A DNA stretch of 35,365 bases from Nitrospinaceae bacterium. Its GTDB lineage: Bacteria > Nitrospinota > Nitrospinia > Nitrospinales > VA-1. The position numbers and the translations under genes were made by a program. The notes under the pieces are model-generated. The model searched no databases. It was not told the origin of the DNA and saw only the letters and a program-made list of their open reading frames with translations. Below, piece after piece: positions 16,920 to 21,888 of the stretch (position 1 is the first letter of the stretch; every line of letters starts with the position of its first letter). The stretch is taken from contig JALPWY010000016.1 in the NCBI GenBank assembly GCA_023271875.1, forward strand, positions 1 to 35,365, in the 5' to 3' direction.

Positions 16920-16947
16920 TTGACATTAAACACGTTTAGAATAAAAT
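16920..16947 (+). promoter_or_regulatory. Strong putative sigma70 promoter for the Lys/Ala-rich protein gene
   Basis: TTGACA (16920-16925), 16-nt spacer, TAAAAT (16942-16947). Confidence 0.65.
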
Positions 16948-16962
16948 ATTCAGACAATGTTA

Positions 16963-17196
16963 GGGCGCTGAAACGAAACTTAACATTGAACAAGGAGATC
17001 TTGATGGCAACCAAGAAAAAAGCTAAGAAAAAAGCAACAAAGAAAAAAGCTAAGAAAAAAGCAACAAAGAAAAAAGCAACAAGGAAAAAAGCAACCAAGA
17101 AAAAAGCTAAGAAAAAAGCAACAAAGAAAAAAGCAAAACGGAGAAGATAGTCTAACACCAAACTGTTTTGCTGATTATAGAATCGTTTCAGCGCCC
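16963..17196. repeat. Perfect 14-bp inverted repeat flanking the Lys/Ala-rich gene
   Basis: GGGCGCTGAAACGA at 16963-16976 and its exact reverse complement TCGTTTCAGCGCCC at 17183-17196. Confidence 0.9.
17004..17150 (+). CDS. Lys/Ala-rich repeat protein (histone H1-like / AlgP-like basic tail)
   Basis: AAGGAG SD (16992-16997), then ATG at 17004: MATKKKAKKKATKKKAKKKATKKKATRKKATKKKAKKKATKKKAKRRR*. The 5' extension in the ORF track (from 16881) lies upstream of the SD and promoter and is unlikely to be coding. Confidence 0.8.
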   Translation: MATKKKAKKKATKKKAKKKATKKKATRKKATKKKAKKKATKKKAKRRR

Positions 17197-17284
17197 AAAA
17201 ACATTTCTAGCCTACCGCAAAACCCCTCTCCATTTTCTTTGCGAAGTCAAACTTAAATCTAACTATTTGAATAACTGTTGGTTA

Positions 17285-20763: not shown

Positions 20764-21888
20764 ATGAATTCCACTTCTCTTAGCACGGGTAGGGAAATAG
20801 AGTTTTCCCCCGAGACTATCTTTATCGATAAGTCAGTTGCTGACCATCCGCTGACCCTGAAAACTCTTCTTCAATTTCCAGATACGCCCATCGAACATAA
20901 TATTACCGTTGATGAGGCCATTCAAATAATTCGGAAAACTTCAAGTGATGTTTTTGGTGCTGGGAAACGTAATTTGGTCCTCACTCGATTTAAAGGTTCG
21001 TTTCTAAAAAAATGCCCTGGTATTAGCCCGGGAATGGTTTGCTGTAATTATTACGTGGTTAATCTTCTTAAAAATTGCATGTACGATTGTTCCTATTGTT
21101 TTTTACAAGATTTTCTTCAAAACAATCCGCTACTTGTTGCTTACGTTAATATCGAAGATTTATTAGATGAACTAGAGCGAACATTCGCAGCTCACCCCGA
21201 TCGGACATTTCGCGTAGGTACGGGAGAGTTAACTGATAGCCTAGCTCTGGATCAAGTTATTCCATTCTCTCAACAATTGATTCCATTTTTTAACCAGAAA
21301 AAAAATGCAGTTCTTGAACTCAAGACAAAATCAAACTGCGTGATAAACTTGCTAAACCAGAACTGCGCAGATAATGTTGTAGTTTCCTGGTCGTTGAACC
21401 CACAAAGAATTATAGATCAAGAAGAAAAAGGAACCCCAAACCTCGAACAAAGATTAGAGGCTGCTCGGCTGTGCGCAAACAAGGGTTATAAAATAGGAAT
21501 ACACCTCGATCCTATTATAATTTCGCCAGACTGGGAAAGGGCATACCATGGTATGATCGAAAAAATATTCGAGGTGCTATCACCATCGCAAATAGAGTGG
21601 GTGAGTCTTGGCAGTTTTCGCTATCGAATGTCTCTTAAGAAAATCATTAATGAGCGTCATAATAATACTCGCCTATTTACAGGCGAACATATTTCTAGCA
21701 AAGATGGGAAACACCGCTACCTTAGATCGCTTAGGAATGAAGCTTATAAAAACCTTCGCAGTCTCTTAAAAAATTTCTCTACCGATTTAAACGTCTATCT
21801 ATGTATGGAAACCAGAGAGATCTGGGAAGGGGTTACAGGGAAAATGCCGCGGTCTGATGAAACGCTAGACAAATTTTTTGACCTATAA
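20764..21888 (+). CDS. SPL (spore photoproduct lyase)-family radical SAM protein
   Basis: CMYDCSYCFLQ (CxxxCxxC cluster) and C-terminal VYLCMETREIWEGVTGKMP, typical of SplB-like radical SAM proteins. Confidence 0.85.
   Translation: MNSTSLSTGREIEFSPETIFIDKSVADHPLTLKTLLQFPDTPIEHNITVDEAIQIIRKTSSDVFGAGKRNLVLTRFKGSFLKKCPGISPGMVCCNYYVVNLLKNCMYDCSYCFLQDFLQNNPLLVAYVNIEDLLDELERTFAAHPDRTFRVGTGELTDSLALDQVIPFSQQLIPFFNQKKNAVLELKTKSNCVINLLNQNCADNVVVSWSLNPQRIIDQEEKGTPNLEQRLEAARLCANKGYKIGIHLDPIIISPDWERAYHGMIEKIFEVLSPSQIEWVSLGSFRYRMSLKKIINERHNNTRLFTGEHISSKDGKHRYLRSLRNEAYKNLRSLLKNFSTDLNVYLCMETREIWEGVTGKMPRSDETLDKFFDL

Follow-up and report, generated by a model that had tools for sequence, protein, structure and literature searches.

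What does a perfect inverted repeat do when its arms bracket a whole gene, one in each untranslated region of the predicted mRNA? The question is raised by a small gene in a Nitrospinota genome, within a stretch of 35,365 nucleotides that was analysed as a whole and is called the window here. The 5′ arm, GGGCGCTGAAACGA, lies at 16963–16976 on the plus strand (placed by its exact copy in the window and by the alignment of relatives), and the 3′ arm, TCGTTTCAGCGCCC, its exact reverse complement, lies at 17183–17196 on the same strand. Between them is an ORF of 48 amino acids (17004–17150, plus strand), a Lys/Ala repeat of histone-like composition, with a Shine–Dalgarno sequence (SD), AAGGAG, at 16992–16997, an ATG at 17004 and a stop codon at 17148–17150. 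This ORF sits between pgeF and rlmI, an arrangement shared by many relatives, with the arms in its 5′ and 3′ UTRs: the former begins 15 nt past a predicted sigma70-type promoter (TTGACA-16 nt-TAAAAT, 16920–16947, plus strand) and the latter 32 nt past the stop codon. A sequence-only reading had pointed to the perfect 14-bp repeat around the ORF, whose coordinates are exact, and to TAAAAT as a −10 element, which proves to be part of that promoter. As possible roles it had listed closure of the mRNA, a cis element recognised by a protein and the ends of a small mobile cassette.

Relatives were gathered by a DNA search of 60 related genomes and by a search with the rlmI-like neighbour. Both arms are kept in 47 of the 47 genomes in which both UTRs could be read, spanning four families of one order; orthologues without the paired arms, which would have refuted the earlier proposal of pairing, are absent from this set. 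Genomes missing an arm were left out of the count, their contigs ending within or beside the repeat-rich ORF; such breaks inside or beside the Lys/Ala repeat occur at this locus in G003, G004, G006, G024 and others. A promoter of this kind precedes the 5′ arm in all 46 orthologues considered (46/46; spacing of 16 nt, 17 nt in two cases), which leads us to predict, without RNA-seq, that both arms belong to one transcript. When named genomes were scanned with a sequence pattern, 34 matched. Their titles read Nitrospina, Nitrospinaceae, Nitrospinae or Nitrospinota, apart from two titled Nitrospirota/Nitrospirae, and these two apparently correspond to G053 and G016 of this order.

The 3′ arm had been held not to be an ordinary terminator. 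This stands: no terminator-like site was found within the window, and a long T-tract follows the arm in only three relatives (L031, L033 and L048). In genus g7 (L033, L048) the 3′ arm is found within a GGTTTTTT...AAAAAACC-type hairpin followed by T8, and arm and terminator may be fused there; a T7 tract follows the arm in L031 (g5). Both in the window (17197–17260) and in 36 of 36 relatives, the stretch after the 3′ arm is rich in C and poor in G and is, for that reason, compatible with a Rho-type ending and trimming back to the stem, although this fit is an untested argument from composition only.

The arms vary together. In an ungapped alignment of 40 distinct sequences over the 14-bp helix, 98.0% of cells are paired, and pairing falls to 35–45% when the partner is slid by 1–3 columns. 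Changes on both sides affect 6 pairs and 27 cells (2.4 and 4.6 in shuffles). Pair 2 changes from G-C to A-U in genera g5 and g7, pair 4 from C-G to U-A twice (in g3 and in one g8 genome), pair 6 from C-G to U-A in g2 and pair 11 from A-U to U-A in f4 g13; pair 13 changes from G-C to A-U or U-G, and pair 14 from A-U to C-G or U-A. A genome's own arms pair at −29.9 kcal/mol as against −26.2 kcal/mol for swapped arms, an advantage equalled in none of 20,000 permutations and, with one genome per lineage, in none of 50,000. Since both-side changes are found and own arms beat permuted ones, we infer RNA pairing in cis, and this comparative evidence leaves us nearly certain that both arms are halves of a conserved RNA helix. 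The locus thus has one of the defining marks of 5′/3′ UTR-paired mRNAs of the hbs and icaR kind, a conserved pairing between both UTRs; among the roles listed earlier, it is mRNA closure that the orthologous loci and their compensatory changes strongly back. Because the arms persist in four families although both sides have changed, a bacterial 5′–3′ mRNA closure becomes testable by covariation.

Folding predictions agree with the pairing. The predicted transcript (16954–17205), whose folding the sequence-only reading had suggested, has a z of −6.1, with none of 200 shuffles as good, and the closing stem is predicted at a probability of about 1.0 in 35 of 35 complete mRNAs. Beyond the 14 bp, the helix is extended by 6 bp across a 1×3 internal loop, where AATGTT (16956–16961, plus strand) can pair with AACATT (17200–17205, plus strand). 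Two further elements had not been recognised before: a local 5′ hairpin and an antisense small RNA encoded elsewhere. The hairpin, CAATGTTAGG...CTTAACATTG (16955–16988, plus strand), is 5′-terminal, holds most of the 5′ arm inside its loop and would form in place of the long-range helix. Most genomes have the 5′ arm in the loop of such a hairpin, with a stem that varies between lineages (e.g., CGGTATT/AATACCG, AAATATTTGG/CCAAATATT, GATATTTGG/CCAGATATC); in genera g5 and g7 this region is arranged differently. Covariation was not counted for this hairpin, as the consensus alignment is too variable, and single-sequence folds are the only evidence for it. With it, the nascent RNA could fold locally first and pair over the long range later, or the arms could meet in a kissing contact; which step comes first is inferred.

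The small RNA is indicated by a second copy of the start region. Most genomes of the order have CTTGATGGCAACCAAG at one further place, as does none of 13 genomes from the rest of the class. Each genome contains the 17-nt start-site sequence about two times, at the mRNA and the small-RNA loci, and controls gave no hit in 77 genomes. The second locus reads on the opposite strand: in 53 of 53 sequences it has TTGACA, about 30 nt upstream of the small-RNA start, and an extended −10, followed by a predicted RNA of 100–140 nt with a T-rich end. This RNA is unannotated, has a sigma70-type promoter and a predicted three-way-junction fold, and in the window's genome its gene lies on the minus strand at G000:C2:13143-13272 (L184:3944-4073). 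Its closing stem carries changes on both sides, and its loop region is invariant in 44 aligned sequences; the predicted fold of the shorter forms has the closing stem, then a small hairpin, and a third arm that bears the hairpin UCUUGGUUGCCAUCAAGG. Neighbouring genes are proA, an M50 protease gene and then an OEP/TolC-like gene, dprA or topA, with proA, dprA and topA identified by eye from translations. The gene is present in two copies in G029 and G044, and partly so in G011. Rfam gave no credible match for the mRNA or the small RNA. We rejected the reading of the second locus as a second Lys/Ala or short-peptide gene: the peptides are not conserved, and the promoter and T-tract are on the other strand.

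Its target site on the mRNA, AAGGAGATCTTGATGGCAACCAAG (16992–17015, plus strand), takes in the SD, the start codon and codons 2–4, and is predicted to be faced by the small-RNA stretch GUUGCCAU. The predicted duplex begins upstream of the SD, reaches about codon 4 and has an energy between −40 and −56 kcal/mol in all 42 genomes that have both RNAs; family f2 has one internal mismatch. Codons 2–4 are GCA ACC AAG in 45 of 46 ORFs. Further along the ORFs, ACC accounts for only 19% of Thr codons and AAG for 35% of Lys codons, so the constraint lies on the RNA sequence itself. A trans-encoded antisense small RNA is expected to have a separate locus with its own promoter and terminator, which is met as far as sequence alone can tell, and conserved complementarity to the RBS and start codon of its target, which is also met. 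On this basis, we consider it highly probable that this is an antisense small RNA with the Lys/Ala mRNA as its target. The arms of the mRNA and of the small RNA resemble one another. Pairing in trans between them was rejected, as own pairs were no better than swapped ones and showed no covariation. A common origin of both RNAs by inverted duplication is possible and remains untested.

The product is less easily named. The 35 complete ORFs encode 20–116 amino acids, varying widely in length among relatives, with about 58% Lys+Arg, 23% Ala and almost no acidic residues. The likeness to histones is one of composition only, since profile matches to H1-like families are far below the cut-off: the window ORF had no match in a histone H1-like profile search, and a 67-aa fragment of a relative reached HC2 with E 0.78 and 10.3 bits against a curated cut-off of 40, so membership in HC2 and the other histone H1-like families is not met. 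Longer Lys/Ala H1-like proteins (170 aa) are encoded at L176 (G012:C16) and L178 (G030:C53), by genes with unrelated 5′ regions that are without the small-RNA target site. Elsewhere in the window (20764–21888) there is an SPL-like radical SAM protein (Pfam spore photoproduct lyase), carried by a group that is not known to sporulate.

Three elements are established here by sequence comparison: a conserved, covarying helix, a small-RNA locus with predicted promoter, fold and T-rich end, and conserved complementarity to the start site. Around them we hypothesize the following course. The nascent RNA would first fold into the 5′-terminal hairpin, with the motif exposed in the loop; after synthesis of the 3′ UTR, the 3′ arm would pair with the 5′ arm, either by kissing or by opening the hairpin. 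The closed helix, with the whole ORF in its loop, would shield both ends from nucleases and stabilise the mRNA, and the hairpin UCUUGGUUGCCAUCAAGG of the trans-encoded small RNA would pair with the SD and start codon and block ribosome binding. Transcription, end protection, folding order and repression are all inferred; we have no transcript data, and the promoters, the ends and both RNAs are predictions. As a whole, an mRNA closed by a helix for stability together with trans-antisense repression of initiation seems to us the likely explanation. The stability clamp as the role of the arms, which was chosen partly by analogy, we put at about even chances. It is favoured over masking of the RBS because SD accessibility is the same with and without the 3′ arm (mean predicted SD unpaired, 0.51 and 0.53). 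The SD at 16992–16997 lies outside the arms, no anti-SD is present in them, and predicted accessibility of the SD and AUG is unchanged on removing the 3′ arm; therefore, no direct effect of closure on translation is seen, and masking of the SD by closure is left without support from folding.

These predictions also bear on the alternative that survives best, a fold-back inhibition in which the 5′–3′ interaction keeps the full-length mRNA translationally inert until trimming at the 3′ end activates it, and the activated mRNA is neutralised by the antisense RNA. The hok/Sok and aapA/IsoA type I toxin–antitoxin mRNAs have such a long-distance 5′–3′ interaction (PMC6733600), and the layout is the same at our locus: an alternative hairpin at the 5′ end, a 5′–3′ interaction and an antisense RNA at the RBS. 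A toxic product is also conceivable, given that the histone-like HctA is lethal when expressed in E. coli (PMC4355289). However, folding, though it is only a prediction, does not show closure sequestering the SD as the hok/aapA mechanism requires; the antisense RNA is encoded in trans; and the protein is basic and soluble, a repeat with about 58% K+R and 23% A, not a small hydrophobic toxic peptide. We regard this alternative as unlikely.

Somewhat more doubtful is the possibility that RNase III processes the mRNA at the closed helix, so that pairing leads to decay and not to protection. The precedent is icaR of Staphylococcus aureus, whose 5′ and 3′ UTRs pair across the SD by way of UCCCC, giving a substrate for RNase III (PMC3868564), and in the window 14 bp plus a further 6 bp could serve in the same way. 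In many relatives, however, the uninterrupted part of the helix is short (about 12–16 bp) and, unlike in icaR, the Nitrospinota SD is outside the helix, in the loop; inhibition of the icaR type, by pairing of the 3′ UTR with the SD, is not met.

The arms could also be two DNA sites in opposite orientation for one regulator, the matched changes then recording its changing specificity. A common shift in specificity could indeed produce changes on both sides, but wherever one side alone has changed and pairing is retained (14 cases), the result is G-U; this points to RNA pairing and is not an outcome that a DNA site would favour. The DNA-level version of a protein-recognised element thus becomes unlikely. 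In addition, the arms stand at either end of the predicted transcript, the motif is flanked by 5′ stems specific to each lineage, and no further recurrent copies of the arm 12-mer were found at other places; a search of the genome assembly (61% complete), as the sequence-only reading had advised, returned only the 2 arms. We give very little weight to this explanation. A chance repeat or the ends of a small mobile cassette, with nothing in their favour beyond the repeat itself, can be dismissed as practically negligible on account of the single syntenic pgeF–rlmI position in four families across the order, the covariation, the lack of other copies and the rarity of perfect inverted repeats of at least 14 (0 in 20,000 mononucleotide shuffles; 1 in 3,000 random window stretches of the same size, some possibly including the repeat studied), which is of the order estimated earlier, about 1 in 10,000.

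Helix closure combined with antisense repression, the explanation that we prefer, would bring an undescribed small RNA with a single clear target to Nitrospinota, a phylum to which major marine nitrite oxidisers belong, and it points to RNA control of a histone-like protein there. A literature search for Nitrospina and sRNA, limited in scope, found no small-RNA study, and a two-RNA control of a histone-like protein across the order appears to be previously undescribed. Few bacterial 5′/3′ UTR interactions are known. One involves hbs, the gene for the histone-like nucleoid protein HU.

In Bacillus subtilis, a 14-nt interaction between the 5′ and 3′ UTRs of hbs mRNA protects it from RNase Y (Braun et al. 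2017, as described in PMC7821165). Both systems have a 14-nt pairing of two UTRs in one mRNA and a histone-like product, although HU is unrelated to the Lys/Ala repeat. That source describes several functional 3′ UTRs, hbs included, as not conserved between close relatives, whereas the Nitrospinota arms are conserved and covary across an order; the portion consulted mentions no trans-antisense small RNA for hbs, whereas one is predicted in Nitrospinota, and the protection of their mRNA is inferred. The other half of our proposal resembles hctA/IhtA of Chlamydia trachomatis (PMC4355289): a trans-encoded structured small RNA, which blocks initiation on its target, is complementary around the start codon of an mRNA for a highly basic histone H1-like protein, and the first codons of that mRNA are conserved as RNA sequence. 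IhtA pairs with hctA mRNA through 7 nt, in contrast to about 24 or more pairs, from the SD to codon 4, in Nitrospinota; no 5′/3′ closure of hctA mRNA is reported in the portion consulted, and there is no detectable sequence kinship. Both mechanisms are therefore of kinds already known and, as far as could be checked, what is new is how they are combined, how deeply the system is conserved and the group of hosts that carries it. More speculatively, and with more doubt than belief, we conjecture an order-wide two-RNA switch, in which a self-closing mRNA and a trans-encoded antisense RNA are built on closing stems that resemble each other (GGGNNCUGAAC/GUUCAGNNCCC), and one of them may have arisen from the other by inverted duplication. 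Together they would gate a histone-like protein that condenses chromatin and could arrest growth, a switch comparable to HctA/IhtA of Chlamydia and independently evolved.
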